Assembly (NCBI GenBank): GCA_963920765.1
Contig: OY987245.1
Span: 20,476,727-20,540,726, forward strand
Length of the DNA stretch: 64,000 nt
Direction: 5' to 3'
Origin: Ulota crispa
Lineage: Eukaryota > Streptophyta > Bryopsida > Orthotrichales > Orthotrichaceae
In this document: piece after piece, positions 28,023 through 64,000 of the stretch
Numbering within the stretch: position 1 is the stretch's first letter
How the letters are laid out: every line of letters begins with the position of its first letter
Notes under the pieces: generated by a model
The model's input: the letters and a program-made list of their open reading frames with translations, nothing else
Databases searched by the model: none
What the model was told of the DNA's origin: nothing
Translations under genes and position numbers: made by a program

Positions 28023-28094
28023 CCCTTGAATGTCCAAGGGATTGCAAAGCCAATTTATATGGTGACCTAACATATCACGTTGAACATTAAAGGA
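28023..28094. mobile_element. Degenerate TTAA-type mini-element, 72 bp
   Basis: Flanked by TTAG and TTAA. Ends CCCTTGAATGTCC and (inverse) TCCTTTAATGTTC fit the CCCYTAAATG family allowing for decay. Confidence 0.4.
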
Positions 28095-28760
28095 TTAACG
28101 TCTGAAGTGCATAAATTAGATTCACACTACCTTAAAAAATTCCCTAATGTCATCATTCCAACAAGACAGTTCAATAATGCTTAGCTTTGGCGGCACTGTA
28201 GCTAATGTTCAATTTACCAATGGATGCAAATATCATTGTCATGCATTGTTTTATACAATGAGTACCAATATACATTACAACAATTTTCTTGAGTTACTCA
28301 ATCACGGATACTCGATTTTGTCAATATTTTGGTATGTAATCACTATAGCTTGTCACCAACTCCATGATATTTCTTAATGAAAATTTTAATTAAAGTGCAC
28401 AAAACTATGCTCACCATTTATTTATTTTAAATCCTACAAAATCTAAATTAACTTAACATAAATAATTAGTTGCTCCTCTACCTAATTTTCCTTTGCCTGT
28501 AATGAAAATTGGGTCAATAAAATTAAATAACTAATAGACTCAAAATCCAAACACACATACCCCACACCTCCCCTAGCATGTGAACAAGTTATAAAATTCT
28601 AGAGGTGAGGATTCTACCAATGTATTGCCTATGCTCCCTTGTTCCAAAATTATAATTTAATAATGTTTAGTTGTTTGTACTTAATAACCTTTAATTGCCA
28701 GTGGATTTACGTTTTATTATCATCCATTTGTTTGGAGGCAAACAACACCTGTATATGTTA
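28095..28760. other. AT-rich intergenic
   Basis: A 76-codon frame at 28147-28377 has no recognisable similarity. No repeat was assigned. Confidence 0.4.
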
Positions 28761-29085
28761 AGGTCAGAGGCTCAATCTCCGTTAGGGCACTAATTCCGCT
28801 CACCACCCCAAATGATCTCCATCAACACATGTTTTATTCATAGTCTCTGCGTAATGTATAAAAGACATACATTTGAGGAGGTGCACTGGTTTAAAGCCCT
28901 ATGACCTTTCCACTTCAAAATTTCATAACTAATTCCACATTACTTTAAAAAATTCAAAATAACTTGAGTTAAATGCCAATTCCTCTTGTCTTTCAAAGAA
29001 AATTTACTGAAAAATATTTTAAGAAGTTCCACCATCCAAAATTTAGTTTCAGCTCTTAGATGGTCGGTTTACGAGCCTCTTACCT
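28761..29085. mobile_element. TA-flanked MITE, 325 bp
   Basis: TA then AGGTCAGAGGCTC on the left, and GAGCCTCTTACCT then TA on the right. This is the AGGTA-ended group also present at 43917, 46148 and 59500. A TA duplication is typical of Tc1/mariner-type (Stowaway-like) MITEs. Confidence 0.6.
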
Positions 29086-29281
29086 TAGTACATGCATTCT
29101 AAGTTCTTTCTACCAAATGTCATGCATTTTCATAATACTTGATTACGTTATCACAACTGATGCAGTTAACAATTTTCCAGTTTTTGGAGTTGTTTCTGAA
29201 TGAACCTATAAGCTTACCAGGTATTGAGCTACGGTCCTTCTGAAGCATACTGATAAGGGTGGAGTAACTGTGGCCCGTTAA

Positions 29282-29352
29282 CCCCACATCACGGGCAGAT
29301 CTCAAAATACATTAGAAACAGGGACAAATTTGTCCCCTTAGGCGATGAGGGG
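29282..29352. mobile_element. TTAA-type mini-element, 71 bp
   Basis: TTAA at 29278 and 29353. Ends CCCCACATCAC and inverse CCCCTCATCGC. Its right TTAA is shared with the next element. Confidence 0.55.
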
Positions 29353-29356
29353 TTAA

Positions 29357-29760
29357 CCCTTAAATGATCACAGGGAATCATAAAATTCTAGCTGTATTGT
29401 AATTCTACGGTGACACAAATCTGATTTTTGTTCTTTTCTTAACGCGGATTGTGAATCCGAGCGATTAGACGAGAGCGCTTGCTCTTGGCGCTCTGGCAGC
29501 GTGTCCATTTTGGGGATCCACCGCAGGGATCTGTAAGTTGCAAAATATGCTCCAGCTACATATTCGTAGCCCACCTCCAATACAAACGCTTTGCAAAGTT
29601 GGAAAAACAATCACAGAAACATGTCAAACATTGCAAAAGGTGGAAACGAATAGCAATACACAACCCTCAAAAATCCAAGCAAAATTCAAAACAACAACAC
29701 CTCTAAATACGGGAAAAATACCCTATTTTGGCCGTAGCAGCACGCTAGGTTGTTTAGGGG
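29357..29760. mobile_element. TTAA-type element, 404 bp
   Basis: TTAA at 29353-29356 and 29761-29764. Ends CCCTTAAATGATC and (inverse) CCCCTAAACAACC. No protein similarity; internal frames are short. Confidence 0.7.
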
Positions 29761-29764
29761 TTAA

Positions 29765-31720
29765 ACAAAAAATAACATTGCTTGCTATGTTTTGCTGGTA
29801 AATACAGTAGTAGACAAAGTTCACAAAATGTGGCTACATGTAATAAAACCTCAACCAATTTTTTCATGGCTTCAAAAAATGTGGATACTACATATTTAGG
29901 GAGTGTTCATGCTATATCTCACATTCCATTGAAACTTGAGAACCTAATAAGTGTATAGTCAAAAGTTGGGACTTGGCATTTCACATTATATTCCAAGTCC
30001 CATGTCTTTATTTGCTATTTTTTACAAGTTAACACTTCTTAAAAATTGGCACCAAAGAAGGTGAAACTTCATTCAAAGTTTAGGACAACCATTTTGCTAG
30101 ATTCAACTTTCAACTCAAATCCCACCAAATCTTTTGCATAAAATACTCATGCCTTTCTTTAGTACTCCATTTAGCCTTTCATCCTTTAAGGTCTGGTTGA
30201 CCACTTTTTGGTTGAATTAAACACACTATCATTGGTAGCCAAAGTTTGGCAATGAATTTGGTTATGGATGAAAGGAGACAGGTGTGGGGAATTCAAAAAT
30301 GAATATAATGGGACAAATTCCATGAAGATCCGTGCCAGCATGTGGTGTAGGGGTTGAAAAATTGCATGCATATAGGCTGACAATACGCAAATGATTGGAG
30401 AAATACAGCCCTAAATGCAAAAGAAAATGATATTTATACTAATAAACCTAAGTTTGGGGAACGCCAAGTTGGAGTACCATATAGTTCTTGATGGTAAAAA
30501 ATGAGAAACTTGGCCTATAAGAACAAAATAGAATTTCTCAACTAGAAATATGTGGCAAAGGTAGCTTGTTGTATGCATGCTCACTTCACCATATACGGAT
30601 TGAGAGATCTAGTATAATTTGTAACAAAAGAACCCTCAATTACCACCAAATTTATTGTGAAGGTCCAAGCATCAAATCCCATTCCAATGGTACGGTTATA
30701 TCTTCATCACAAATCACATTTAGGTATTTCTCATCTTGAGTTTAGAATAGGAAAACCTCTTGCCCGCCCCCCAAATCAACCACAAACCTTAAAGGGTTAA
30801 TAGTTGAGATCTCACATTGAGGTGGGACTTAAAGAGAGATGGGGTGTGGAGTGAACCGCCCCTTAGGCTTGGTTCAAACTACCAACCGGTAGAGACACGG
30901 AAATCTGCACCCCATCCGGTGTTTTACCCAATAGAAACTTTTCAGTGTAATCGCGTGTCATCCAAGAGTGTGCCTTTGCCGGACAAGTTTGGTACCACCC
31001 TTGGAGCAAGCCCAAATCTTCACTATCTTGGGCGCTGACGTGGCTATCTAGGGTGGTCCCTAGGGACCACCCTAGGGTGGTCCCTAGGGTGGTGAAGATG
31101 GATGTTAAAGTACTGGACAAACCCGTTGTCTAAACCCAACAATAAAGAAAAGCCGAATTTCAACCAATCACGTTTGTGAAATTTTTGGCCAAACGCCAGT
31201 CTGAACTAGGTCTTAGCAATGTGCAGGAAAAATCGACTGCTAGTTCATTGTTAGCCGGTAGAATTGAGAAAAAAACCAATTACATTTTGAAATTGCCAAC
31301 AAAAAAACTGGTTAGGTTTTACTAAAAATCTAAATATAGCATGTTACTATGTAAATTTAGAAAAATATCCTGCCCGATCTGGAACAATATCAGTTGAGTA
31401 CAGAAAATGCCGATTTTTAGCTGGTGAAGGCCAAAAAATTTTCCTAACACTAAGACTTGAAATATAGGCCTATTTTGCAGTGTATTTAGCCAGTAGAGCT
31501 AATAATGAGAAAAATGCATATGGGAAGTTGGGAACATTGGTACAGTAACAGTCAGCCCCTGCCCCAAATTTCCAATCCTCCACGGTGCCAAATTAAGCCT
31601 CGCCGTCGTTAGCCCCAGAGTGTCAATTCTGCTATTATTTCTACAGGGCCCAACGGTACTGTTTTGTACTCGGCCATCTATTGTATTCTGGACAATCAGG
31701 GTGTCACGTCCTCGTATGTA
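29765..31720. other. Gene-free interval
   Basis: Frames of up to 88 codons without known motifs. A block near 30810-30910 (GATCTCACATTGAGGTGGGAC) recalls plant LTR sequence but no partner LTR was found. One perfect palindrome is listed separately. Confidence 0.45.
31048..31075. repeat. Perfect 28-bp GC-rich palindrome
   Basis: Half-site CTAGGGTGGTCCCT followed by its exact reverse complement. A further partial copy (GGTGGTCCCTAGGGTGGT) follows immediately. Function unknown. Confidence 0.8.
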
Positions 31721-32035
31721 CAGTGCTCTCCAACAAGTCCTCAAACACCCTCTTTTGATATTCAAATTTTTTTGCCAATATGAAATATAATTGATATTTT
31801 GCTATTTTGAATTATAGAAATTTAATTCTTATGCAATCTCAATCAAGCATATCAAATTTTGATTCTTCAAACCAAAACTCCATTTTTGATGAATTATTTC
31901 GTATTTAATCATGGTTTTACATGATAATTGATTGAAAAATATTGGTGATGAATTTTTGAGATTTGATTGCATGGGTATGTAGAAAGCATCTATACACAAA
32001 TCTTCTATGCTAAGAAGAACCCCCTTAACCCTTTA

Positions 32036-32269
32036 CCCCTAAATGACAAAGCATCCCTTTGTGGCGAGTACGATACGATGTATTTTTCTTGTATTTGGAG
32101 TGCATCCACACCTTTATTACTTTTGAGATCAACAAAGAAGTTAGAATATAGATCAATGATGTTCTAGTGAGGTAGTCAAGATCCCAAATTAAAACTTTTT
32201 GTTGGTAGCAAATGCCAGTTATACAATAGCATATGTATTATGTATTATAGTAGCTTTGTCCTTTAAGGG
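32036..32269. mobile_element. TTAA-type element, ~234 bp
   Basis: Left flank TTTA (decayed TTAA; an intact TTAA lies 7 bp further left at 32025), then CCCCTAAATGACAAAGC. The right end is the inverse of CCCTTAAAGGACAAAGC, then TTAA at 32270. Nested in the TIR element at 31721. Confidence 0.65.
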
Positions 32270-32273
32270 TTAA

Positions 32274-32489
32274 ATGTCCATAGGGCATAGTATATACACT
32301 GACATATAATTGTCATTTGCTACTAATAAGAATTTAATTTGGGATATTAAGTAGCTCACTAGAACCGCATTGATCTATTCTCCAACTTCTTTGTTGGTCT
32401 CAAATGTAGTAGAGGTGTGGATCAATTCCAAATACAAGAAAAATTCCCCGTATTGTACTGGTCGGGCGGCACGCTCAGACATTTTGGGG
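32274..32489. mobile_element. TTAA-type element, ~216 bp, left end eroded
   Basis: TTAA at 32270-32273 (shared with the preceding element) and 32490-32493. Right inverse CCCCAAAATGTCTGAGCGTG. Its reverse complement is homologous to 38267-38484 and 49034-49259 (shared ATGTTTGAGCATGCCGC-like and GGATCCACACC-like blocks). Confidence 0.6.
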
Positions 32490-32994
32490 TTAAGTAACCA
32501 AAAATTGATCTACAAAGAATACAATGTGACTTGTGATATGCCCAAACTTTGTAAAATAGATATTTCTTTGTGATAGTCAAACTTTTCTATCCAATTCTTA
32601 CATTGTGACTAAATTTGTACCTTTGAACATAATGTTATGTTTACTTGGTGAAAAATTTAGTAATTTCTTTTGCAAAGTTTTTTGAATGACAAAATAGGGT
32701 GTATGAGGACTTGTTGGAGGGCACCGTATAGTAACATACGGTGCTATACAACTGCTGAGTCAGCAGCGGATGTCCACGTATGTATGTAGACTATTATCCA
32801 TGCTACTTCTAGAACGCAAAATTTATCTTCAATTGCTCCTTTATGTGATGATCTCGACTGTGTTTTCAAGAGCATCTGCATCTTTACAAGCAATCACTAA
32901 CTCAATAAGAGTTTACACTTTACATACATTTATATTTATGAAGAGTCCTAAAAAATCTTGTCCCCCACTTTTACTCTTCAAACGTGTACCTTAA

Positions 32995-33230
32995 CCCTTA
33001 AAGGACGGTGCTACTATAATACATACTATGTATGCTGCTATATAACTAGCATTTGCTACCAACAAAAAGTTTTAATTTGAGATCTTGACTACCTCACTAG
33101 AACAACATTGATCTATATTCTAACTTCTTTGTTGATCTCAAATGTACAATGAAGATGTGGATGCACTCCAAATACAAGAAAACTACCCCGTATTGTATTG
33201 GTTGCAAAGGGTTGCCTTATCCTTTCGGAA
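32995..33230. mobile_element. TTAA-type element, 236 bp
   Basis: TTAA at 32991-32994 and 33231-33234. Left CCCTTAAAGGACGGTGC; right end TTATCCTTTCGGAA is weaker. Interior shares the GATCTCAAATGTA and GTGGATGCACTCC region with 32036-32269. Confidence 0.6.
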
Positions 33231-33234
33231 TTAA

Positions 33235-34080
33235 CTCCTAAAAGATTGCAGCCTTTATTTTCTCAAAATACACTCAAAATTGCCATTTTTGTGTCAAAAA
33301 GTAAAAAAGTTTGAAAATATGTCTTTTAGCATATCTAATTGTAGGATCTTGTACTAGACTTGTATAAGAATGTGAAAAAAAACTTCAAAAATGTTGACAT
33401 CACATATTGCAATATATTTGTGTTTAAAGTGTAAAAAACAAACTTTTTTGCACCGTGCATGACTAGATTATTTGACTTTGAACTTTTTTAATTTAAAATT
33501 TTTGCACCTTTAATACTGAAGTTTTCAATTTTTATGGTGGAAAATGGAGTTGAGAATCTTTGGAAAATTTTTAAAACAAAAAAAACTTAATTTTTATTCT
33601 CAAAAAAAAATTAGGTGGAAGAAGGTATGAGATTGAACAAAAACTTGAGTTGTTAATAGCCTTGCAATGGAATTGAAACACAATAATCCCAATGGTGAGA
33701 TTGTTCTAGAAAGCAAACTTCACCCTTTCCAAAAAAAATTGAAAAAAATTAAACTTGCATTCAAAAATGAACTTTATAAGTTATTTTTTCAAGAAGATGA
33801 TTGAATTGCCCTAAAAATAAGATTGCCCATGACTTTCTCATTACTAGTCCAAATGGAATGAATCAAAACTTTAGATGTAGAAAAATCTATAACCTATGTG
33901 AAAAAGAAATTAACTTTTTTTTTAAGTTTTTGTAAAAAAATTTGCTGCCCAATCTCCCCAAATTTGTGCTTATCTAGGCATAAATTTTGCTCTTGAGCAT
34001 AGATTGAAATAAAAATTGTATTCCCCAAAAGCTAATGTGTTTTGTCAATGGTAGAGTGGAGTCCTAGAAATAATAAATTG
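33235..34080. mobile_element. TTAA-type element, ~850 bp, right end lost
   Basis: Starts CTCCTAAAAGATTGCAGCC immediately after the TTAA at 33231. Homologous to 63775-64000 in direct orientation and to ~4300-5205 in inverted orientation (for example AATCTCATACCTTCTTCTAC there against its complement here). The distal terminus is not recognisable. Confidence 0.6.
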
Positions 34081-34246
34081 TACCACATTGTACAAAAGAA
34101 ACCCTCTAGCATCAATAATTATATTTCAAAGACTAGAGATTTAAAAGCTTATATATAAAAGCTTTGGATTCAAATTATCCTTTAAATAACAAAAAGCTAT
34201 ATGTATTGCATACGCGGTATGCAAGGATCATAGAGAATTCATTTAA

Positions 34247-34870
34247 CCCTTAAATGCCCAAGCAACCACAACTGGGTCTTTACAAAACTTTGAAGGTGAA
34301 AAAAACCTTATCAAATCACTATTTTCAATATACATTTTTCAATATAAGTTTGTTTTGAAGTCTATTTTCAACATCAAGAATTTGATATTGAAAATGAAAG
34401 TTGATGATTTTTCTACTCAAGATTTTGTACAAGGTATCCATTGCAATCTTGAGTTTTCAAGTGTTGGAAGATTTTAAAAATGAGCCTCAAGTACACTACA
34501 ACTTGAAGAAAAATCCACATTAAAAATTCATTTAAAAAGTATATAGGAATAGATTTTGAAAGTTGTAAATTGATTAAGGCTAGACTTGTAATGACCTTGA
34601 ACCTCATATTTTTTTGCTGACCAAATTTTTAGATTTGAAATGTGAAATGAGGATTTGAAGACTTCAAGTCACTTTTGCAGTTTGAACACCCTCATGTTCA
34701 AAAATTATAATCTTTCAAACTATATGTGATATTGTTGTATTTTCTTTTTCCATGTAATGTCAAACATGTCTAGTTTGAAAAAAACTTGATGAAATTTGTG
34801 ACAAGGTTGATTGACTGTTCAGTTTCATGGAAATTACAAGAAGCTCCAATAGGCCTTGGACATTTAGGAG
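34247..34870. mobile_element. TTAA-type element, 624 bp
   Basis: TTAA at 34243-34246 and 34871-34874. Ends CCCTTAAATGCCCAAGC and inverse CTCCTAAATGTCCAAGG, an excellent 15-of-17 TIR. Interior homologous to 34986-35622 (inverted) and to 51116-52060. Non-coding. Confidence 0.8.
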
Positions 34871-34985
34871 TTAAGAACTCAACAAGGCTAATGCTTTCGC
34901 TTCCATTGAGTTCCCCCTCCTTTATATTGTATTTGTTTTTTCCAAAGATTTCAAAGAGTGTTCCGCAAGAAGGCAAGTGTTTTAA

Positions 34986-35622
34986 CCCCTAAATGCCTGA
35001 GGCCTTTTCTGAGCATCTAGGAACTTTCTCTTGATTGAACAAAAAGCCAACATTTTAATAAGGTGTATCAAGTTTTTCTAAATTGTAACCGTACCAATTC
35101 AAACTAGATATGTTAGAGATCACATAGGAAAAGAAAACACAACAATTTCACTTATGGATTGAAAGATTATAATGTCTGATCATGAGGGTGTTAAAACTGC
35201 AAAAATGATTTGGAGTTTTTCAATCCTCTTTTCACAAGTTGAATCTAAAAAATTGGTCACCAAAAAAATATAAGGTTAAAAGACATAACATACATAACTT
35301 CAATCACTTTATGGCTTTTCAAAATCTCTTCTACAATTTTTTTATGATGAATTTCTAATGTAATATATTCTTTAAGATCTAATGCATTTGCTACTCATTT
35401 CCAAGAGCTCTCAACACTACAGAAAGTCAAGACCCTTGCACAAAGTCTTGAATAAACAACCCATAATCAATCATTTTCAAAATCGGATTTTTGATGCTAA
35501 AACTAGGCTTAGAAAGAATAGTTCTAAAATACAAATTACTAAAAATAGTAACTAAATGAGGTTTATTGGACCTCAAAGTACTGTCATCACCAAAATTTGG
35601 TGCCATAGGTATTTAATAGGGG
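34986..35622. mobile_element. TTAA-type element, 637 bp, opposite orientation to its neighbour
   Basis: TTAA at 34982-34985 and 35623-35626. Left CCCCTAAATGCCTGAGG, right inverse CCCCTATTAAATACC (decayed). A shared interior block (AACACCCTCATG and its complement) shows it faces its neighbour at 34247 head-on. Confidence 0.65.
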
Positions 35623-35676
35623 TTAAAACCTCGTGAGGCCGATCTGTTGAGCTGGTTGTTGTTGCGTTATAAAGAA

Positions 35677-36261
35677 AGGAAAATTTCATTAATACCCTTG
35701 AAGTTTGCCATGATATCACAAATACCCCTACTTTTTCAATAATTTCATGGATACTCTTGGACCATGCGACTTCTTTGCGCTGAGTTGTTTCTTTCCCAAT
35801 ATCTCAAGTTTCTTTCCGCTCTTTTCCCATTACTCTGAACTTTCAAATTTGTCGCGTGACTTTCAGGTTTTGCGATTTGCTTCCGCCTCCTTGCAACGGC
35901 GCCGAAGAAACTTGTCGCCCGCATTCATTGCCTCTTAAAGACAAATTGCATGTGAACAAAGGTTTAGGGTTTTGATCAAACTGCCTGTGAAGTCAAATTG
36001 CTCAAGTCAGATTGCTTGTGAGTTGTGAAGAAACATCGTGGAAGCAAGTTGAAGTCGAATTTCTCAAACGTGGAGGAAATAAGGATCTTGATCAAAAAGC
36101 AGAAGATAAATTGCTGATGAACTAATGGCAAGGGGGTGAAATCCCAATCAAGCAAGCAGCTTGTGGATGACAAATTGCTCCTGAATGAACAGCTAGGGGG
36201 TGAAATCTCAATCAAGCAAGCATCGCCATTCTTCCCATGACCCGCACACCAGGTGAGTTTT
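35677..36261 (+). repeat. Left TIR of the MULE, ~585 bp
   Basis: Near-identical to the reverse complement of 42901-43499 apart from short indels (a 17-bp duplication in the right arm). Includes frames that are shadows of the repeat. Confidence 0.9.
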
Positions 36262-36344
36262 ATCTCAACGCGTGTGTCATTCGTCATTTTCACACGAAAC
36301 ATGGAAAATAGTAGGGATAAAGTTGAAATAAGTAAGCTAGGGAA

Positions 36345-37449
36345 GAACTAATTTACAATCAGATTTACTGCTCAAATACTCTGAAATTCTAGAAGCCATG
36401 ATAATATTGGTCAATGTGCCATCAATAATACTGCCATCGATTACTTTGAATTTCCACACCTTATTGAAAGCAGCTTTCATGCTTAGGTTTGAAGGATCCC
36501 CAGCCCAGTATAGACACCTGCAGTTTGTCTAGGTGAATAAGTTGTCTGTTGTCGATTACAAATACATACTCCACAAATTTGGGAAGTGTAATACACAATA
36601 TGGATCCAATAACAACATAAACATTCTAAATGCTTCTTTACCAAAACAAAATGCCTCAATGAGCCGCTTAGACACTTCCTGACCAACATTACTAGTCACA
36701 AACTCCTTCACCGATTCCTCACAGCCCTACATCAAACAAAAACAAAAAAGTCAAAACTTTGTATGTAATTGTCACCGTGCTCCTCTGCAATGAAATATTG
36801 AGGATTTCCTAATGCAACTACAAGTACCACATTTCTCTGACAAAGATTAGTTCCTATAGGATGTTGCCTACCAAAAGTGTTATTTGTATTTGTACAAGAA
36901 CCATATAGTACTTAAAGAAATGACTATATGACAAATGTTAAAAATTCTCCAAAAAATCCTAGTTGACAAGTAGTATGTCTATGACTTGGCTTGAAACTAA
37001 CAACTCCACTGGGGTTCATGTGCTATCAAAAAACCCCATCCATATACAACTGGGGAGTCTGTATACAAAACAGCAACATCCTTTAGGGGTTAAGAGCAGC
37101 TTGGTGATATTTACATTAATTTGATGAAAGGAGTTCTAGAACTCAAATCCCCATGTTTGATTGGTAAGTGATTAAACTAAAAAGCTTGGGATCTAGAAGC
37201 AGCTGCCAAGACCTTAACCAAAATACAAGATACCATCTATGTACTTCAAAATGGTTGTACAATACAACTTAGCGGATAACACTAAGAATGTCCAAAATTG
37301 CATTATGCCAGTACAATATTGCTCAGCCAAAGGGTAGAGTTCCAGATATGAACTTACTGGAGCAGCCGGTCTCAATCCCATGGCTCCAAAACCAGCCTAA
37401 AGCTCTCCAAAAATATTGAGAATATCAAAAACTCGTAAATCAACCAGCC
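36345..37449 (-). pseudogene. Captured fragment of protoporphyrinogen IX oxidase gene (PPOX, HemG/HemY type), introns included
   Basis: Minus-strand exon pieces match PPOX in order. About 37449-37357: VDLRVFDILNIFGEL, then AGFGAMGLRPAAP and a GTAAGT donor. About 36727 down: GCEESVKEFVTSNVGQEV and RLIEAFCFG, then GTAAAG donor; after an intron to CTGCAG near 36530 come GVYTG and DPSNLSMKAAFNKVWKFK, GSIIDGTL. Seed-plant PPOX has RAGFGA.G.RPP.P, EESVEEFVRRNLG, RLIEPFCSGVYAGDPSKLSMKAAF and GSIIGGT at the same place. Introns remain, so genomic DNA was captured rather than cDNA. A stop between GEL and AGFGA and a small frame slip in VYTG/GDPS make it non-functional. The intact parent gene is not in the window. 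Confidence 0.85.
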
Positions 37450-38266
37450 CTACAAGAGAAAAAACAAGTATCAATAACAATTACAGCAGTTGACGTCCTG
37501 TGCTTGCTCAGATGTGCAGTAATGTCATTGTAAATTTCAAGAAACAAAAGTTGAACACAATATGTATTTGAATGAGCGTTTAGTCATGCTTCCAAGATAG
37601 AAGTACATGTCATGAATGTGTTTGTGCAAGATAAAAAGTTACCTGCAGAAACATGTCTTAAGTTCTATCGATGGCAAGTTACCAAGTGAAGTACTAGAAT
37701 TACTCAGGGTGCTAGACTATTCTTCTGCAAGAAGCGTCATATGGTGTCAAGGCATGTGACTGGCTGTCTCTTGATTCCACAAGGGAGGAGCCATTCATTT
37801 TCACATGATCTGGCAGTATGTACAAGATTTGCACCTGCAAACAAGCAACACAACACGTGCTCAATTGCCCTAGTTCTACCGTCACTCAACAGTTTATAAT
37901 GAACATACTAATGGACACTATTCGTCTCTTCAATGGAATTACAAATGAGGTTTATTTTTGAAGCTTTGCTACTAATGTTATTTAATCTGAACTAAAACCT
38001 TAATTTGATTGAATTGTTGCATGACCACTTTGCAATTGTAATACGCGCTCATGGGAAAGACTTTATTTCCGTTTTCAAAGGCAATGGAAATTTGCAATAG
38101 TGTTACCAGCAACAAAAAGAATGTAGAGTTCGGACCTGATTCAAAAATTCATCTCCATTTCTTGTAAAAGGTACCAACATTGTCTCATTTTTTTGTTGAA
38201 GAAGCCCCAACCTCAGACTTTGCAATATAGAATCAGACATTAGCAACTCGTGCGCAATGTCCTTAA

Positions 38267-38484
38267 CTCCTAGATGTTTGAGCATGCCGCTCCAACTTGT
38301 ACAATACGAGATATTTTTCTTGTATTTGGAATGGATCCACACCTCTACTACATTTGAAACCAACAAAGAAGTTGGAGAACAAATCAATGCAATTCTAGTG
38401 AGTTACTTGAGATCCCAAATTAAAATTTCTTATTGGTAACAAATAATGCCAGCGTATATACTATGCCCTATGGATGTTTAAGGG
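38267..38484. mobile_element. TTAA-type element nested in the MULE, 218 bp
   Basis: TTAA at 38263-38266 and 38485-38488. Ends CTCCTAGATGTTTGAGC and inverse CCCTTAAACATCCATAGGG. Inserted after the MULE arrived, which dates this family's activity later than the MULE insertion. Confidence 0.8.
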
Positions 38485-38488
38485 TTAA

Positions 38489-39023
38489 CCTCAAAAAGAA
38501 GAAAAATACTGTACAATACTCCTTACTAAGCATGCTAGGATACTGCACAAGAAATTAGCAAGGTGCATTAATAGGGAAATGAGACGGAGGGAAAAATCAT
38601 ATAGGAAATAGTCATTGATATTTCACAGCTCACAGGAAAACTGTGAAGAATTATAGAAACTAGTACAGGGAGTTCACTAGTTACATCAGTTCAAGATATC
38701 TAAACATTCAGAATTATTTGACCTTGAGTTCTTATGAATGTGAGGAAGAGTGGAAACCGAAAATTAGAACTCTTACTAGTTGCTTTGCTCCTTATTCTAA
38801 CTCCGACCCCAACCAGATGCCCATCTCATAACTTTTCTTTCTAAAGTCATTTTTTTTCCCAATTCATATACACAAACACATCAATAAAGCCTTCATCATT
38901 ATAAAATTGTAGAGTCTGTAACTTATACGTCAACACTCCACCTGTTGCAAATGAACTCTTGCTCCAAATGGATTGTAGATGACTAATTAGTTCTTTTGCC
39001 CTCCATCTGAAATTTAAGAATTT
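38489..39023. other. Non-coding interior of the MULE
   Basis: Nothing recognisable between the nested element and the 3' end of the transposase relic. A weak right-end motif (TTTAGGGG then TTAA) at 37082-37093 may mark another eroded TTAA-type copy. Confidence 0.4.
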
Positions 39024-40905
39024 TCAAATAGGTGAGCAATAGGTACGACGCGAATGACCTCTTCCTCCGTAGCGGCTACAAGTAAATGATCGCTTCTCAC
39101 GTCCAATGTCTTTTGTTCGGATCCGCTTCTTTTTTGGACGTCTCAGAGGCCTTTGTGTGAGTGGCAGTTTGCAAAAGGATGCTTCAATGTCTTCAGACTC
39201 CCCATCTGATCCATGAACATAGACTATAGTTTGCAACTCTTGCAATGCAATAGGCTCAATAGTACGCGCATAAGTTTGTTGGTAACTTGTACCTGTAAAA
39301 AAAGAACCAACATAACTCTGCACACGTTCTTTCCAATGTAAGATTGCAGCACCAGCATGTGCACATGGCACTTCACTTTGTTGCCAGACTTGGCATGTGC
39401 AGGAGCGGTCATCAATGTTGACTACATTGTTACCACGGGATGATACTATTTCATACGTGCTTGCATTTGCTTGAAAAATCTGGTATCGTTAGGCAGTTTG
39501 GACAACTTTTTGAACCTCACGCTCAGCAGATGTGCAAAGGCCACCTACTAGCAAACATGCGGCTTGCTCACGGTGCTTGGCAAACCATATCATCAATTCA
39601 CAACGTATCGTGTCAATCATAAGAAGAATATTCTAATTACGTGCTAGCAAGAGCCATGCATTTAGAGATTTTGTAATATTTGATGTCAAATGCCCAAAAC
39701 GCTTGCCAGGGAAAAATGCAATTGCCCAAAACAATTTTGAGGTTTTGCATTCCAACCATGGACATGTTTGCAAATGAAATCAGCAATAATAATGCAATGA
39801 GTTTGTAAGATAAAGTAAAAAACAAATGTACTTGAAAAGAAGCAAATACATAGTGATGTACCGAAATTGTGAAATGAAACAATTATCATCAAGCATTGTT
39901 TACCTCTCTATTTATCTTGTCAATGTTGGCCATACATTCTTCAAAAAGAGCTGGAGTTTGTGCATATGCAGCTTTCCATAAATGTGCAACAAATTGCACA
40001 TTTTTGAAGGCACGTCAAACGTTTTCAACCAAATGACGCATGCAAAACGCATGGTGGCAATTTGCAAAGGTTGCATTTACACCCTCAACAAGACCTTTTT
40101 GTCAATCTGACAAAAATGTCAATTGAGGCAAAGTAGTGCAATTGGCAAGTAATGCGGCGAGCAAGTTAGCAAGGAACCACATTCAATTGCTATCATTCTC
40201 TGTTGTGACCACGCCAAAACAAAGAGGGAAAAGAGATCCTTTTGCATCAAGTGCAATTGCACATAAAAGCACACCAAGGTACTTCCTTTGGAGGTGAGTT
40301 TAGTCAATGGCTATCAAAGATATGCAGTATTAGAAGCCCACTAAAGAGGGACCAAACGCAACAAACAGGCGAGAGAAACGACTATCGTCCACTTCAAGTT
40401 TTGTAATTGTCGAAGGCATTGTATTCTCTAAGGCTTTGTAGTACTGGCAAAGTTTGTTATATGCATCTTCATGTGACCCAGTGGCCATGCTCACTGCTAG
40501 TTCACGAGCCCTCCACATTCGAAAGTATGGGACAGATACACCATGGTCTTGCCAAATATCATTAACAATCTCTTTTGCAGAGTAGCCATGAGTTTCACGT
40601 ACCTTGTCGTTGATTGCAATTGCAACAAACATAGATGACGCATGCTTATTGTCAAGATGATTGATGCCGGTGCATGTATGTTGCAGCTTCACAGATTTTA
40701 TTATAGTATGTGGACCACATGCAGCATTCTCCAATGAGGCATGTAACCTCCAACCACAATCTTTGTGGCGACAAGCAACCGTGTATCTGGTAGAGTCAGC
40801 TGCAATGGTCCGCATTTCAAAGCATTGAGTAACCGCCACCCTCACAACATACTCACATAGCTCTTGCATTGATGAGAAGCATTGGCCAACTTCTAGAGTT
40901 TCCAT
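39024..40905 (-). pseudogene. Decayed MURA/MuDR-type transposase
   Basis: Reads from 40905 down. The first 191 codons (40905-40330) hold the MuDR-type DNA-binding domain with CRHKDCGW and a CxxC...H pattern, ending RLFVAFGPSLVGF. The DDE/MULE domain follows with visible relics (GVLLCAIALDAKGSLFPLCFG, then KGLVEGVNATFANCHHAFCM) but broken by stops, including TGA at 40183-40185, 40102-40104 and 40015-40017. After an apparent intron starting near 39903 come IRCELMIWFAKHREQAAC, a SWIM zinc finger (CTCQVWQQSEVPCAH near 39360) and a terminal CSRYGGRGHSRRT knuckle whose second Cys is Tyr. Several frameshifts. Cannot encode active transposase. Confidence 0.9.
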
Positions 40906-42900
40906 AGTAGGAAACGTAATAATCTATGTCATTAACAAAAATTTATGTCATAAATAATGCAACAATGAAACAAAATGACAAAGAATCAAATATGAAGAAT
41001 GTGCAAGCAAAAAAAAAAACATGGCGGAAAATGCAATGACTAAGGGGAGCAAAGTGATGCAAAATAGTATCTTGTAAGTTGTTATACTACACAGAATGGC
41101 TATTAGAATTGGACATGCTCTGTATTCTGGGTGACCAAGGTAACATTATCAAAAAGTAGGATCAAAGGTGAGTTAGTAAGGTTTGTTATGCAGATGAGAG
41201 AAGTATTTGCAAACTTATAAGGGAGTTTCACTTATCTTTTAAAAAAACAAAGCAAACTTACAATCTTAAAGATACTGGTTGCTTGAAGTACAAAAGGACC
41301 AACAATGTTTCTGCAAAAGTGGAGTTACAGCAGAGCTGTGGCTGCATATTTTGAATCACCTTGTTAATTACTCCCATAAAGATGCTCAATACGCTCACAA
41401 TGAAAATCACCACAAATGTAAAGTGTTATTCAAAGTCTTCTCTTCATGACAAGTTTTAAAGAAGTATTAAGATGGTAGGTTATTATTCTTTGATTTCTTT
41501 TCAACTTCTTTAAAATATGGTTGTAAAGTTGAAATAGAAGAACTTCAAATAAGTTTTGACTCACTTGCATTTTTCATGGATCACGCCCCTCTCGTTATCA
41601 AACTAAAAAAGAGGTTTTTTTGTGTGAAATATTAGTAATTGAAAGTTGCTTTTTAGGAAATTGAGTATGTATCATTTGAATACTATTTGCAAAAATTTTG
41701 GTTGAACAAGTTAGACAACCTTTGTTGTGCACAATATATAATTTGGTGGTGCACATTTTTATTCTAAATTCATTGTCCGAATTTGAAGAATTGTCCAAAT
41801 TTGAAGAATGTTCAAATTAGGACTGTACTAGAACTCAAATCTTAAATGCAAACACATCATAACAAAGGTTTCTCCTTCCATTATTCCCAAAGGAATTTTC
41901 TCTCCGTATCCAAACTTCATAAGTGTCCATACAAAGAAGTCCTCATGCGTTTTACTGTTTGGCCACTTTACCTTTAGGAATCAATTCATCAAAAATTAAT
42001 GGATGATATAAAAACGTAAAGACATGTAGTTTTGAACTAGACTAACGTAAAGATACCCAAAGGCCATGCTCACTCACCTGAATGTTCACAAATATAGGGC
42101 TCTTGATTTGTGCAATAACAGTAAATTCCTCAAATGTCGCAACCTGAAATTTATCTGAGCACAAACTAGGTAGCTGTGCAAAATGTGATATAAAATGCTT
42201 CTTAACTTAATCAAGTTACAATGAAAGGCAGGCACTATGCAATTTAACTCACATGTATTACATAGTCATTAACTAAAAGAAATCTGAAACTGCAATAAGC
42301 AAATTTTGTAAGGGCGGGTAAGTAGGAATTTAACCACATTCGAATAATTTAGCCCAGCTGCAATGAAAGAATATGCAATTTTCTCTACTAGTTTAAAAAT
42401 AGAAATTGACCATTTCTAAAATAAAAACACGCTACATTATCCTCTCTCTATTTCCTCAACACTCTGGAAAGGGCTTGTTTTAGTCTATACATCTGCTATG
42501 TTCTATCTCAAACACTAAGAACGACACTCACACTTAAGATTTGCTTTAATCATGGTTTTGTAACACACCTGCTAGTGGAGAGCAAAAATGATGGCAATGT
42601 AGTCACAGACAAACCAAGTGCTCAATACGTTCCAAGGAAAAAAAAGCTGCACAAAATTTGCCAAAAATATTTGCTTCATGAATGCAAAAAAGAAAAGACT
42701 TGTTGAAAGCCAGGCAAGGGTTGCGAGTTGCTTCCACCAAGTTGATCATTGAGAAAATGCAAGTATTGGAACTCAAGTGACTTGAAACTAATGGGGCAAA
42801 GCCTTTCCTAAGTGATTGTGACATAAAAAACAAGCATAGGATCATGGAAGCAAGAAAATTATAAACAAGCTTAGCACTGTCCGAATTGGAGAACAGATTT

Positions 42901-43499
42901 AAAACTCACCTGGTGTGTGGGTCATGGGAAGAATGGCGATGCTTGCTTGATCGAGATTTCACCCCCTAGCTGTTCGTTCAAGAGCAATTTGTCATCCACA
43001 AGCTGCTTGCGTGATTGAGATTTCACCCCCTTGCCGTTAGTTCATCAGCAATTTATCTTCTGTTTCTTGATCGAGATCCTTATTTCCTCCACGTTTGAGA
43101 AATTCCACATTCGAGAAATTCAACTTTAGCTTGCTTCCACGATGTTTCTTCACAACTCACAAGCAATTTGACTTGAGCAATTTGACTTCACAGGCAGTTT
43201 GATCAAAACCCTAAACCTTTGTTCACATGCAATTCGTCTTAAAGAGGCAACGAATGCGGGCGACAAGTTTCTTCGGCGCTGTTGCAAGGAGGCGGAAGCA
43301 AATTGCGAAACCTGAAAGTCACGCGACAAATTTGAAAGTTCGGAGTAACGGGAAAAGAGCGGAAAGAAACTTGAGATATCGGGAAAGAAATAGCTCAGTG
43401 CAAAGAAGTCGCCTAGTCCAAGGTATCCATGAAATTATTGAAAAAGCAAAGTATCTGTGATATTATGGCAAACTTCAGGGGTATCCATGAAATTTTCCC
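42901..43499 (-). repeat. Right TIR of the MULE, ~600 bp
   Basis: Reverse complement of the left TIR. Its outer edge is 197 bp upstream of the UBL5 start codon, so any distal promoter elements of that gene are now supplied by the TIR. Confidence 0.9.
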
Positions 43500-43508
43500 T
43501 ATAAAGAA
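43500..43508 (+). promoter_or_regulatory. Downstream copy of MULE target duplication; likely TATA box of UBL5
   Basis: TATAAAGAA lies 196 bp before the UBL5 ATG and its twin is at 35668-35676. TATAAAG is a good TATA-box match, so the MULE seems to have inserted into, and duplicated, the core promoter element. Confidence 0.5.
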
Positions 43509-43633
43509 TCCTCGCTTACTTCGTGAGACATCGTGCAGGGGAGGGGTTCTTGTCCAGGAGCCTCGTCCAGGCAAAGTGCTCCTCACCGGGTTTGCGTTCT
43601 TGGTGCTCCGTAGAACACTAGAACCGGTGTGGC

Positions 43634-43917: not shown

Positions 43918-44394
43918 GGTAGGAGCACCCATAAGCGTGAATCTAAGGGTTTTGGGGTAGAAAAATCTAAGGGTTTTGGGGTAGAAAAATCTAAGGGTTT
44001 TGGGGTAGAAAAATCTAAGGGTTTTGGGGTTGGAAAAACAGTTGATGAACATTGAAAAAATGGTGTTAAGTTAGGAAGAGGAAATAAAAAATATTGGCAT
44101 TAACTTGAAAGTTTCAATTGCAAGTATTTGTTTACAAAAACATTTCTAAGTCCTAAATTACTGAACATGTATAGTTGTGTGTAGGAGATGTCTTTAGTGT
44201 GCTCATAGTTACGCTCATAATACTAACTTGAGGAGTTCTTAAATAGTGAGATGGGCCACTTGGCATGTTACCCAAAACCATGACTTTGTCACCCATAGCC
44301 AATCTTTTTAATTGTCGATCATTGATATCACTAACACAAGTAGGCATCGGGGATGCAGACACTAACGATAAACGATGAGGGGATGCTCCTACCT
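43917..44394. mobile_element. TA-flanked MITE at the UBL5 stop codon, 478 bp
   Basis: Ends AGGTAGGAGCACCC and inverse AGGTAGGAGCATCCCC, flanked by TA (43915-43916 and 44395-44396). The left part carries a four-copy tandem array. The sister copy is at 59500-59813. TA duplication suggests Tc1/mariner-type mobilisation. Confidence 0.8.
43940..44035. repeat. Tandem array, ~24 bp x 4
   Basis: Unit AATCTAAGGGTTTTGGGG plus TAGAAA, four nearly identical copies, inside the MITE. G-runs of four on the + strand could support quadruplex formation. Confidence 0.9.
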
Positions 44395-47480: not shown

Positions 47481-47490
47481 GTAGCTCAAC

Positions 47491-49029: not shown

Positions 49030-49033
49030 TTAA

Positions 49034-49259
49034 CCCTTAAACTACCAAAAGGCCATTTGCAACCAGTACAGTATGGGGTGTTTTTCTTGTATTTGGAATG
49101 GATCCACACCTTTACTACATTTGAAACCAACAAAGAAGCTGGAGATTAGATTAATATGATTCTAGTGAACTATTTGAGATTCCAAATTAAAATTTCTTAT
49201 GGGTAGCAAATGACAATTACACGTCAGCATATGTACTATTCCCTATGGTCGTTTAAGTG
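49034..49259. mobile_element. TTAA-type element, 226 bp
   Basis: TTAA at 49030-49033 and 49260-49263. Ends CCCTTAAACTACC and inverse CACTTAAACGACC. Homologous over its length to 38267-38484 (shared TTTCTTGTATTTGGAATGGA). Confidence 0.8.
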
Positions 49260-49263
49260 TTAA

Positions 49264-50917: not shown

Positions 50918-51412
50918 TATTCACTATAATATACAAATTTTGACAACAATAAGACCCTAACAACAACAACAACTTTAAGGGAAAACAAACTAGTGACCTC
51001 CAAGTTGTAAACCATGTGAAATCCTAATATTTAGAAAGTTACATGTGTCTCCAAGTGGCCAATTCAAGTAATGAGTCATGAGGTAACTTTCTAGAGTAAG
51101 ACACCTAATTGTTAACCCCTCATTGCCCAAGGGGCTCAAATTGGGCCCCTCTGAATTTTATTCAGCAATGCTCAACTTCTTTTCAAGATTTTTTTAGTGA
51201 TTACTATTATTTTTAAATTCTTATTGAATTCTAGTTTCAGCATCAAGAGTCTGATTTTGAACATGAATTAAAGTGATTTGTCTATTCAATACTTTGTGCA
51301 ACACATTGCAAATCTTCACTTTCTAGTGTTGAAGGCCCTTGGAAATGAGCCTCAAGTACACTAGAACTTGGAGTAAAAATCACATTAAAAATTCAATTTA
51401 AAAAATTGTAGC

Positions 51413-51722
51413 ATTAGGAAAAATATGGGGCCGCAATAAGGCCTTGAGTTTGGGGGGGTCCCTAGCCATGGGAACTCGGTTCCCAATAAAATCATGCGCA
51501 GGCTGAGGTGGCATCATTGATGCCACCTCAGCTTTTTCAAATTTTTTTATTTAAAAAAAAAAAAAAAAAAGGTTTCTTATATTTTTCTAAGATTTTTTTG
51601 GATTTTTTAAATTAGTTTTTTCTTGCCTTTTGCAAGGGCTGGTTCCCCACTTTGGGAACAAAACATATGGAGGGCTAGATTTGTTTATAAAAGCCTTATG
51701 GACCCCTCATATTTTTCCTAAT
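51413..51722. mobile_element. Nested TIR element, ~310 bp
   Basis: ATTAGGAAAAATATG and the inverse CATATTTTTCCTAAT bound it, with AAGGCC/GGCTT similarity further in. A target duplication was not identified, so the superfamily is open. Carries a perfect hairpin at 51502-51532. Confidence 0.6.
51502..51532. repeat. Perfect hairpin, 15-bp arms, 1-nt loop
   Basis: GCTGAGGTGGCATCA, T, then the exact reverse complement, followed by a T-rich run. Part of the nested element. No evidence it is a terminator. Confidence 0.85.
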
Positions 51723-52064
51723 GAATAGATTTTGAGAAGCCCTAAACTAAATGGGGTTCTGCATGTTATACTTTACATACTCGTACTTCTTTGGTACCCT
51801 CAATTTTAGGTTTGAGATGCAAAATGAGGATTGAAAGACTTCAAATCACTTTTGCAATTTTAACACCCTCATGATTAAACATTATAATCTTTCAGTCCAT
51901 AAATGATATTGTTGTGATTTCTTTTTCTATGTGATTTATAACATGAGAATTTGTATGACTGTACTTGAGAAAAAATTAATAAAATTGATCAAAATGCTGG
52001 CATTTTGTTCACTTTCAAGCAAATTCTGAGATACTCAACAACATCATGGGCGGTGAGGGGTTAA

Positions 52065-53134: not shown

Positions 53135-53138
53135 TTAA

Positions 53139-53236
53139 CCCTTAAGGACCGGACTGCTCCCAGCGGGCTGGGTCGCGATCCAGTGTATTATTTCAGATTT
53201 CAGCGGACGATTTTCGTCCTCGTGGTCGTTCAAGGG
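53139..53236. mobile_element. TTAA-type mini-element, 98 bp
   Basis: TTAA at 53135-53138 and 53237-53240. Ends CCCTTAAGGACC and inverse CCCTTGAACGACC. It lies at the upstream edge of the U-box gene's leader. Confidence 0.75.
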
Positions 53237-53240
53237 TTAA

Positions 53241-59499: not shown

Positions 59500-59813
59500 A
59501 GGTAGGAACACCCATAAGTGTCAATGTTCCCAGAACCGTCACCTTTGAAATCTTGGAAAATTTGTGAAAGTGAATAGATGTAATGACAAGGATGTACAAT
59601 ATGTGAACATGAAATCTTAAAAATGGTTATGGGTGCAATGGCAATTTGCTCTTTAAAAATTCACAACTTATTCTCATAGTATCCATGTAATACATATGAA
59701 AGTGCAAACTCATTATTTTTCTATTCCCAATAGGATCCTGTAATTTGCTAGTTGTTTATTAATAGTCATCATGTTCAAAACCCTTAGTTTGATGTTTAAA
59801 GGTACTCCTACCT
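59500..59813. mobile_element. TA-flanked MITE, 314 bp
   Basis: Ends AGGTAGGAACACCCATAAG and inverse AGGTAGGAGTACC, flanked by TA at 59498-59499 and 59814-59815. Left end matches the MITE at the UBL5 stop codon over 19 bp with one mismatch. Confidence 0.8.
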
Positions 59814-60243
59814 TACCTAAGTTTCTTTCCATTCAATCTAAAACCACCACAAAAGTGTTTAACACAATAAGATCATATTTAATAAAATTTAGGTTACTCA
59901 TGTAATTTTGAGCTTTGCTTACAAAACATAGGACAATCTTCCAATGCTAAGGGACAAAAGTTTCGAAATATTTTAATTTATTTGTATGAATCTAGTGATA
60001 CTTTATGTATAATACTATAATACGTGCACAACATTGGGAGATCTCCCAATGTTTTGTATATGAATTATTATTTGTGAACATTGTGTAGTCATAAATTAGT
60101 TAGATATGTCATAATATCCAAATTTCAATTTTAAACTTTTTTGAAGAGTTACATATCCCCACAATTTCAAGCATGTGTTTAGATAATGTAAAAGTACAAC
60201 ATATACTATTAAAATGCATTCAAGCAAAAAAATTTGTTTTTGC
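59814..60243. other. AT-rich intergenic
   Basis: Nothing recognisable. Short direct repeat GGGAGATCTCCCAATG forms a palindrome near 60035. Confidence 0.4.
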
Positions 60244-60247
60244 TTAA

Positions 60248-60983
60248 CCCCTGAGTACCCTAGAGGACCGAAAGTGTCCTCACGTGATTTCAAAGTCTTG
60301 AGGCTCTAGATCTACATTTTTGATCTTTCTATAAACTACAATTAGGAAGGTATTCAAGTTGTTCATGCCAATGGACTAATGGCAAGGCAAACCAAATGTT
60401 GTACAATTGCCTCAAGAGATTTGATTTGGTGTAACACCATGCAGAGTGTGGTGGCAAATAATGTTTTACAAGTTGCAATTGATCAATACCCCTTGCAAGC
60501 TTCCTTGTGTGTGCTTTAATTGTGGTACCAAGTAATCTATTGGCAAGGGTTCAAACATGTTCTAAACTCTTATTGTGGCAATCCTTGATGATTATGTTAG
60601 TTATTGTTTTCCGTGCAATAGCAGTTTAAAGCCCTAAAATTTAATATAAAAAGAAGTACAACCTTCAATAATTTGCAAATGTGTTCATTCACATCTAATC
60701 TTGTTGCTCACCTAAATTGAGATGAATCTGGGACTTATAGAATTTCCCAAAAATCTTTAAATAGCTACTACCTACCAAAAAATGAGATTTTGCCATCACA
60801 TGCTATTTGATCAAATGTTATAATCTCCCACCTACCACGGTCAATTGTTCCCAAAATTTACAAGCTGTTTTCTAAGTAGGAGTTCCACTACTTTCATCAT
60901 CCGATTCACTGAAATAGGATGCATCAAAGTTGTAGGTCTCCCAAAACCCTGATTATGATGAAAGTGACCTGGGCGCTCAGGGG
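60248..60983. mobile_element. TTAA-type element, 736 bp
   Basis: TTAA at 60244-60247 and 60984-60987. Ends CCCCTGAGTACCC and inverse CCCCTGAGCGCCC, 11 of 13 matching. No coding capacity. Confidence 0.8.
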
Positions 60984-60987
60984 TTAA

Positions 60988-62365: not shown

Positions 62366-62566
62366 GGGGAGTCGATTCGATTGATCGTCGGGTGGAGCTG
62401 GAGTGGGGAGGATGCGCTGCCGCGTCTGAGCTGCGAATGGAGCTGTGGGAGTGAGTGTGCAGGAGAGTGACGAGAGATTGGAGTGGAGTCCAGTGATGAA
62501 GCTGGAGGAATGGAGGCTGAAGATAGGGAATCGTTGCTGGAGTGTGGAGTACCTGGGTTGGGTGGG

Positions 62567-62572
62567 TTTATA
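62567..62572 (-). promoter_or_regulatory. TATA box of the germin-like gene
   Basis: Minus-strand TATAAA about 200 bp upstream of the start codon, leaving a leader of roughly 170 nt. Confidence 0.6.
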
Positions 62573-62765
62573 TTCGAATGCATAATAAGCGGAATGATCT
62601 CAGTTGAGAGGCGTGTTTTCCAGGACGCGGGGTGGCTGGTAGGAAAATCTCCAGGAAAACCTGGTCGAGAATAGTGGTGGACCCAGACGACAAGAGAAAG
62701 TCAGGCCGGGGTTTGAAGAGTATCAAGTCCAACAGAAGTCAGGTTTAGACGAGTGAGCAGCCTAA

Positions 62766-62940
62766 AGGCCGGATTCTATTGAGGACCTGGACGCCCAGGT
62801 CCTGGAGGTCCAGCGGTATTCTATTAAAGAATTCTTTTTTCGTGTATGGTCAATCAGACCTCCAGGCCTCCAGTCCGTGGAAATTGGCTTTACAAGACCT
62901 GTAGGGCCTGGAGGTCCATGCTCTCAATGGAATCCGGCCC
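62766..62940. mobile_element. PIF/Harbinger (Tourist-like) MITE, 175 bp
   Basis: TAA flanks both sides (62763-62765, 62941-62943). Ends AGGCCGGATTCTATTGAG and inverse GGGCCGGATTCCATTGAG. A 3-bp TAA duplication with GGCC-type ends is typical of Tourist elements. Interior is rich in CCTGGA/TCCAGG palindromic blocks. About 200 bp upstream of the germin-like TATA box. Confidence 0.8.
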
Positions 62941-62943
62941 TAA

Positions 62944-63770
62944 GAGCACCTCCAACCTTTCTCGCCATACCGCAAAGTAGCTGGCCCGAGCTAGTGAGAA
63001 GCCAAAATTTGGGTCCAGCGCGGATGCGCCACACGCAAAATGAAGGCCAGGCTCCTCAAACTTCTCTTTTGAAACTGCAATTCTCAATGTCTTCTGTAAT
63101 TCTTAGCGTGCTTGATTTTTGCAAGTTTGCAAGTTGTGGCTCAATTTGATTTGTTTGCAGTTACAAAAAAGCAGGAAGGTCATGGCAAGTGCTTATTTTT
63201 ATCCTGCTTTTAAGGCTTGGCGTGCATGTTTGGAGAGGAAGGGTGGCTCTCCAAACCGGAGTTGCTCTCTTTAAAACAAAAAGCGCTCTCCAAGCAAGTT
63301 TTGGCATGCACCGTGTGACGGGAAAGGCTGGAGAAGCTCTAAGCAAGCTGATGACTTAGGTTGACAAGGGTTTTCTTGGCCGGGTGGTGGAAATGTGGAA
63401 TCTGCGGATGTGAGCTCTGATTGTGAAGCAACGGCAGAACGGCCTCCCAGTCTAGTGACTCTGGTGTATCTGGTGGCCAAGCTTTGGGTAATTTTGAAAC
63501 GTCTCAATTGTCGGAGACAAAAGTTACAACCTTCAGCTAGTTTTAAGGTTGGACAATAGTTGAGCAGCAATGAGCGCACGCACATGGAATCATGGATGAT
63601 TGTATCGGCTTTAATTCTTTCCGTTTTCTCCAAACTTGCGTGCATTCCAGGGTCACAGGGTGCGTGTCGCTTAGCCAACGAAAAACAAAACAAATACAGT
63701 GTCCTCTTGAATTTCAATTTAAAACACCTTCAAAAAAAGTGCCAAAAAATAGCCTATATTTCAACTCTAT
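62944..63770. other. Intergenic, no gene seen
   Basis: Short frames on both strands (148 codons at 63271-63717, minus) lack known motifs. Confidence 0.4.
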
Positions 63771-63774
63771 TTAA

Positions 63775-64000
63775 CCCCTAAATCTTTGGGGCCTTTATTT
63801 TGTCAAAAGGCACCTAAAATTGCAATTTCTATTGCAAAAAGTAAAAAAGTTTGAAAATTGGTCCTTTTGTATATCTAACTATAGGATCTTGTACTAGACT
63901 TGTATAAGAATGTACACACAAAAATTCATAAACTTTGACCGCACAGATTGCAAGATATTTGCAATTAAATTATAAAAAACAAGTTTCTTTGCACCTTGCA
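63775..64000. mobile_element. TTAA-type element, left end only (runs off the window)
   Basis: TTAA at 63771-63774, then CCCCTAAATCTTTGGGG. Colinear with 33235-33460 (shared AGTAAAAAAGTTTGAAAA and AGGATCTTGTACTAGACTTG). Confidence 0.75.

Follow-up and report, generated by a model that had tools for sequence, protein, structure and literature searches.

A 64,000-nucleotide stretch of the nuclear genome of the moss Ulota crispa (C4:20476727-20540726; hereafter the window) carries short, TTAA-flanked elements that are very probably non-autonomous miniature inverted-repeat transposable elements (MITEs) of the piggyBac superfamily, belonging to several families and moved by the genome's own transposases. 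Each element would be a DNA segment whose short inverted ends are of the CCCYT type and whose insertion at a TTAA left TTAA on both sides. Transposases of the piggyBac type (DDE_Tnp_1_7) would most likely have moved the MITEs in trans by cut and paste; the suppliers would be larger elements, about 5 to 7 kb long, located elsewhere in the genome and bearing ends of the same kind. We observed TTAA-flanked insertion, the end structure, recurrence of the families throughout the genome and the presence of transposase genes. We also observed, at several loci, a common left end at constant spacing from the transposase, and outermost sequences of 36-39 bp common to transposase-bearing and other elements. 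The elements appear to work like a cut-and-paste TTAA transposon, with the testable defining features of piggyBac present and the catalytic residues checked in part. A germin-like gene of the window agrees with a moss host: among the 120 matches listed for it, proteins of unnamed contigs reach 81%, those of Ceratodon 76% and of Physcomitrium 71%, compared with 59% for Sphagnum and 41-58% for named proteins of flowering plants.

TTAA-flanked element families in the window

An earlier, sequence-only reading had proposed about 14 elements between TTAA copies and two relics in the window, and we read all 16 of these coordinates. Twelve of the 14 elements have both ends at TTAA or a one-base variant (ten directly, plus the copy at 34986 and the split copy at 32274), one target copy being mutated, whereas a single end was resolved for the other two (33235 and 63775) and the relics at 28023 and 4300 are eroded. 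The proposed length range held at both extremes, with 71 bp for 29282-29352 and 945 bp for 51116-52060. The elements are as follows:

4296..5210, plus strand: family B relic; left end TTAA + CTCCTAAATG, right end eroded
28019..28098, no strand: 72-bp relic 28023-28094; flanks TTAG/TTAA
29278..29356, no strand: E3, 71-bp element 29282-29352; TTAA on both sides
29353..29764, no strand: 404-bp element 29357-29760; left TTAA common with E3 (71 bp), TTAA on both sides
32025..32493, minus strand: family A copy, split by the copy 32036-32269, which is inserted in the inner TTAA of its own end; TTAA at 32025 and 32490
32032..32273, plus strand: family A copy 32036-32269, 234 bp, nested in 32025..32493; left target copy mutated to TTTA, right TTAA
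32991..33234, minus strand: family A copy 32995-33230, 236 bp; TTAA on both sides
33231..34246, minus strand: family B copy (33235); clear left end, right boundary not delimited
34243..34874, plus strand: family C copy 34247-34870, 624 bp; TTAA on both sides
34982..35626, minus strand: family C copy (34986), 637 bp; TTAA on both sides, the right one at 35623
38263..38488, plus strand: family A copy 38267-38484, 218 bp; TTAA on both sides
49030..49263, plus strand: family A copy 49034-49259, 226 bp; TTAA on both sides
51112..52064, plus strand: family C copy 51116-52060, 945 bp; TTAA on both sides, an unrelated inverted-repeat element (about 330 bp) inside
53135..53240, no strand: 98-bp element 53139-53236; TTAA on both sides
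60244..60987, no strand: E15-family element 60248-60983, 736 bp; ends CCCCTGAGTACCC / CCCCTGAGCGCCC
63771..64000, minus strand: family B copy (63775), running off the window end

Two more unpaired ends lie at 30796 and 37089. The inverted-repeat element inside the family C copy at 51116 spans about 51405-51740 and has CATTAGGAAAAATATG ends.

The terminal inverted repeats are short (about 10-17 bp), and the 10-bp end motif that the sequence-only reading had put forward proved to be enriched yet loose: one of its three forms is matched exactly at only five TTAA-anchored ends, and some ends, such as that at 33230 (TTCC...), do not start with CCC. At the 368 TTAA sites of the window, 5, 7 and 8 motif ends were found with 0, 1 and 2 mismatches, compared with means of 0, 0.1 and 1.2 in 30 first-order Markov sequences used as the chance model. 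With 3 mismatches allowed, the excess was weak (15 observed; mean 9.0 and maximum 15 in the Markov sequences). Since the motif was derived from the same window, this enrichment is a check on chance and not an independent test. Facing end pairs with at least 9 of 12 matching bases numbered 41 in the window and our sample, some of them overlapping. Self-comparison of the window revealed at least three families with common ends but different interiors, namely A, with copies of about 220-240 bp, B, of about 0.9 kb, and C, of about 0.63 kb. Together with the full-length copies found across the genome, these common interiors uphold the view that the elements are true copies and not chance motifs.

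Our genome searches covered 274,817,297 bases in 157 contigs. The first look returned 3,360 (A), 5,755 (B), 4,602 (C) and 2,116 (E15) candidates, which are not copy counts; about 40 were scored per family, and the full query was matched by 22 of 41 for A, 33 of 40 for B, 35 of 43 for C and 23 of 41 for E15. Full-length copies were spread over many chromosomes. The 71-bp E3 gave 16 genome matches including itself, and in 12 of them all 79 queried bases were covered, which suggests movement of E3 as a unit of 71 bp. In 207,300 non-N bases of C1 (21 stretches), we counted six A, four B, four C and two E15-type copies after merging matches by eye; partial B-like matches (63-131 bp) were not counted. 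From this small sample, the genome would hold about 20,000 copies if C1 is typical; passenger copies apparently number in the thousands. The four MITE families make up roughly 4% of the sampled sequence, an estimate from 207 kb of one chromosome.

That insertion takes place at TTAA is shown by two independent cases. In the first, the family A copy 32036-32269 is nested in the end of another A copy, so that the host end reads TTAACCC-TTTA-[insert]-TTAA-ATGTCC, and removal of the insert with one tetramer restores a normal A end. In the second, a family B copy (L015:633-1552) sits in another repeat; once joined, its flanks can be aligned over the junction with six copies of this repeat that lack the insertion, and the tetramer at the empty-site point of these paralogues is TTAA in three, TCAA in two and TTAG in one. 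A further joined-flank match, at L013, was gapped at the junction and was discarded as empty-site evidence. The TTAA duplication characteristic of piggyBac was thus found in both the nested copy and the empty-site paralogues. All eight family A loci that we fetched, including the window's own copy at 32995, have TTAA at both ends, which in three of the eight was seen a few bases beyond the point where the BLAST alignment stopped. PIF/Harbinger elements, which duplicate 3 bp (TAA or TTA), were ruled out, as both ends retain the outer T and A of TTAA. A separate repeat at 59639-59815 and L020:2061-2375 shows an apparent TAA duplication and AGTAGGAACACCC-type ends and is Harbinger-like; it provides background for the empty-site comparison.

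Transposase genes and the ends of their elements

A first look for DDE_Tnp_1_7 (PF13843) gave 528 candidates; the 116 that were scored yielded 120 matches, each exceeding the curated cut-off, with a best E value of 1.3e-73 and loci on C1 to C11. The same search detected no match in 14 control genomes. Stop codons occur in most loci; by our own count, 10 of the 120 rows have none. Three open reading frames (ORFs), when rechecked, scored 8e-60, 2.3e-64 and 6.1e-61, and one moss ORF matches two structures in the PDB, piggyBac 6x67 (E 4.1e-20) and piggyBat 9c0f (5.8e-17). By eye, the C2 frame contains the motifs LTCDE, CVDNFF and GVDLVDQ, and the open C4 frame contains GGVNVGDQ, with N at the position of a D in the Trichoplusia ni (T. 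ni) protein; the T. ni aspartate residues compared with these frames are presumably catalytic. The stop codons in most scored loci, together with the 8-24% divergence of the listed MITE copies from their queries, indicate that the main burst is probably past.

Protein comparisons set the moss transposases apart from those of insects. Among the 120 matches listed for T. ni piggyBac in a protein collection (of 887 in all), the named ones were from insects, which is uninformative on plants. An open moss ORF matched 16 proteins in a collection of 5.8 billion, none bearing a species name, in a search that relies on shared five-residue words and that distant named relatives may escape. In a tree, five moss copies formed three well-supported groups that lay outside the insect proteins and were interspersed with proteins of unnamed host; the references were ten T. 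ni-type insect proteins, without wider animal or fungal sampling, and the tool issued a long-branch warning.

Eight transposase loci were retrieved together with 1.5 kb of flank on either side, and five loci were read further out: for C3 and C2 the upstream flank was lengthened to 5.5 kb, and for C8, C4 and C5, selected as having few stops, the reading covered 3.2-3.8 kb upstream and 2.6-3.2 kb downstream. Both ends were found in three of these five loci, the nearest facing ends bracketing the transposase domain in elements of 5,027 bp (C3), 5,102 bp (C2) and 6,996 bp (C8), with 12/14, 12/14 and 11/14 matching end bases, respectively. The sequence-only reading had inferred a piggyBac-type enzyme and had suggested a search for longer, same-ended copies with a DDE_Tnp_1_7 ORF; PF13843 genes are indeed present in the same genome within elements that have the same kind of ends.

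The position of the ends is stronger evidence than bracketing. The distance from the left TTAA to the start of the domain is 2,525 bp in both the C3 and the C2 element, between which BLASTN detected no DNA similarity. When searched against the whole genome, the first 120 bp of the C3 element had three matches besides itself, each beginning at the first TTAA base. One of these, at C10:11524996 (91% identical to the C3 end), lies 2,525 bp upstream of another PF13843 locus on the same strand, and a second, on the minus strand at C8:14769128 (84%), lies 2,508 bp upstream of another PF13843 locus, again on the same strand; both loci had been found independently of the end search. The third match covers the outer 36 bp only. 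Recurrence of the C3 end at a fixed distance from other transposase loci thus shows that the TTAA/CCCC end belongs to the transposase-bearing element.

The outermost bases of these elements recur in elements of the window and elsewhere. The right 35 bp of E3 are 88.9% identical to the terminal 36 bp of the C3 element (E 4.4e-8), the first 23 bp of the 51116 element are 91% identical to the end of a transposase-bearing element, and the window element 60248-60983 has the end type of the 7.0-kb transposase-bearing C8 element. For the first 120 bp of the C8 element (L042), 40 of 78 candidate matches were scored, all starting from base 1, its TTAA; the 39 matches other than itself span 35-71 bases, mostly 39, as expected if many elements have only its outermost end in common. 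Three longer facing pairs in the sample (L018 3806-7166, L020 7107-9316 and L001 6930-8381) held no frame of at least 140 amino acids between their ends.

The C3, C2 and C8 elements also have in common a coding segment upstream of the transposase, about 630-750 bp from the left end (L039:3602-3976, L038:3616-3987 and L042:959-1303; best E 3.8e-20). This module is partly matched in C4, with no match reported in C5 at 1e-4, and in C3 and C10 alike its distance from the end is 640 bp. As a query, it gave 91 genome matches including itself. For 37 of these, and for 31 of the best 50, one of the 116 transposase places follows downstream on the same strand at a distance of up to 10 kb. The chance of such a placement is about 0.2% for each match, and just one of the 91 lies on the wrong side or strand. 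No match to the module was found in Pfam or among PDB sequences at E values up to 1, and its AlphaFold model, all-helical but poor (mean pLDDT 55), is too uncertain for use. The module may be an N-terminal exon of the transposase or a second gene.

Alternative origins and comparison with known systems

Several observations weigh against the piggyBac reading. With 1.5-kb flanks, the eight transposase loci showed a right end in two cases (C3 and C2) and a left end in none; C3 and C2 were extended for their visible right end and are thus a selected success. C4 has a right end only and C5 has no end. Moreover, TTAA/CCCYT ends are common (0.32 per kb), and among 6,000 random 1.1-kb intervals, 475 (7.9%) were bracketed at 11/14 and 117 (2.0%) at 12/14; given how common such ends are and how the loci were selected, little weight can be put on bracketing by itself. 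For the left end of C2, the genome search found no match other than itself. In agreement with the sequence-only reading, no transposase was found in the window: searches with the T. ni transposase (tblastn, 271 kb) and with the insect piggyBac profile (297 kb) revealed no transposase fragment in the window or the 297 kb read, and no match below an E value of 1, a result put down to the small size of the sample. An enzyme that duplicates TA but lands only in TTAA would leave the same pattern at the sequence level, and mobilization itself is read from sequence rather than from observed excision or transposition. We infer that the transposases moved these MITEs, and likewise which lineage moved which family; the assignment of enzyme to family is most tentative for A and B, whose similarity to the transposase-bearing elements seen is confined to a short stretch at the ends, with no interior link.

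This lack of an interior link would also fit a split origin, in which piggyBac moves the CCCCTCATCGCC and CCCCTGAGCGCC types and families A and B are something else with a convergent TTAA target. Families A and B, however, have the same CCCYT start and the same TTAA insertion site, and the right end of the C4 transposase locus, CCCTTTAGCGACCATGG, resembles the B end CCCCTAAAGGACCATGG at 13 of 17 positions by eye. We therefore consider a split origin unlikely. Kolobok-superfamily MITEs are far less probable still. Kolobok also duplicates TTAA, yet its termini are 5'-RR/YY-3' (PMC9587614) and of the AG type in a Xenopus table (PMC6004289), whereas piggyBac termini are YY (PMC9587614), and CCCT is the most prevalent start in beetle piggyBac elements (PMC12732532). 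The element ends in the window are not of the 5'-RR type but begin with CCCYT or a decayed form of it, YY as in piggyBac, and PF13843 genes lie between the same kind of ends; no search aimed at a Kolobok transposase was made. Sola3-type elements, which prefer a TTAA target, would be another source. Sola does occur in the repeat table of the fern Ceratopteris (PMC6890710), but the transposases found between the ends described here belong to PF13843, no search aimed at Sola having been made, and we regard a Sola3 origin as no more credible than a Kolobok one. Chance motifs or a non-mobile AT-rich repeat would fit the short, loose motif and the weak excess over random at 3 mismatches, but this explanation was already refuted by the enrichment at 0-2 mismatches, the common interiors, the full-length copies on many chromosomes and the empty site, and its probability is negligible.

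Small passenger elements such as those of the window are typical of piggyBac. The moss elements resemble piggyBac itself (T. ni IFP2) and animal piggyBac-type MITEs in their TTAA target, CCCT-type ends and DDE_Tnp_1_7 transposase, and differ from them in their moss host, in the extra conserved coding module upstream and in transposase proteins that are only distantly related to those of the T. ni type. The three transposase-bearing elements read with both ends are also longer, at 5,027, 5,102 and 6,996 bp compared with 2,074-3,465 bp for intact beetle elements (PMC12732532). With piggyBat of Myotis lucifugus they have in common simple, short terminal inverted repeats, which are 15 bp long in piggyBat (PMC8086355); the piggyBat transposase aligns with residues 44-434 of the moss ORF, although its sequence is distant and its host a mammal.

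The piggyBac family is well known from insects and hardly described in land plants. TTAA targets and CCC-starting termini, which the sequence-only reading had taken as a piggyBac signature, are now confirmed in a plant host, the termini being of the 5'-CCCYT type. Its further remark that the superfamily is rare or undescribed in land plants has to be softened. A 2015 survey reported PiggyBac in all taxonomic groups studied (PMC4438587), among which we count land plants; a 2023 review names PiggyBac among angiosperm MITE superfamilies (PMC10004981); and the Ceratopteris repeat table holds 1,230 PiggyBac entries (PMC6890710). These elements of angiosperms and Ceratopteris resemble ours in superfamily label and plant host; in the available portions of the sources, they appear as labels in lists or tables or as occasional mentions, without transposase-bearing elements or empty sites. 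Our search of open-licence papers found none on piggyBac in mosses. One candidate source, a paper on Niphotrichum, was rejected, as both of its matches were to the word "piggybacking".

Four further repeats were noted in the window and the sample. A Mutator-like element at 35677-43499 has DBD_Tnp_Mut and SWIM domains and inverted repeats of about 600 bp (91%), and the 9-bp sequence TATAAAGAA stands on either side of it. The second gene of a duplicated pair of berberine-bridge-type oxidases is interrupted by an inverted-repeat element at 10701-10977. At 43940-44038 lie four tandem repeats of 24 bp that are nearly identical and contain CTAAGGGTTTTGGGG, and a long coding-frame minisatellite of EALNHSWRSFTWK-like units lies at L016:2804-4180.

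A moss lineage of piggyBac and its probable passengers

The elements described here add a new member to a known superfamily, from a host in which that superfamily has been little described. A wider reading has about even chances of being correct. With three well-supported groups among five copies of one genome, piggyBac would have resided in mosses for a long time and radiated into deeply diverged lineages; the 5-7 kb elements of this radiation would bear, ahead of the transposase, a second conserved protein module, of unknown fold, and would have given rise to thousands of MITEs, one of them just 71 bp long. The module, which is without annotation, is a concrete and testable addition to the anatomy of the piggyBac superfamily. 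PiggyBac serves widely as a tool in animals, and in plants it has been employed to excise markers (PMC12732532, PMC10794571). With more than 100 transposase loci and apparently thousands of passengers, this moss offers a native plant system for studying TTAA transposition, its silencing and its age.

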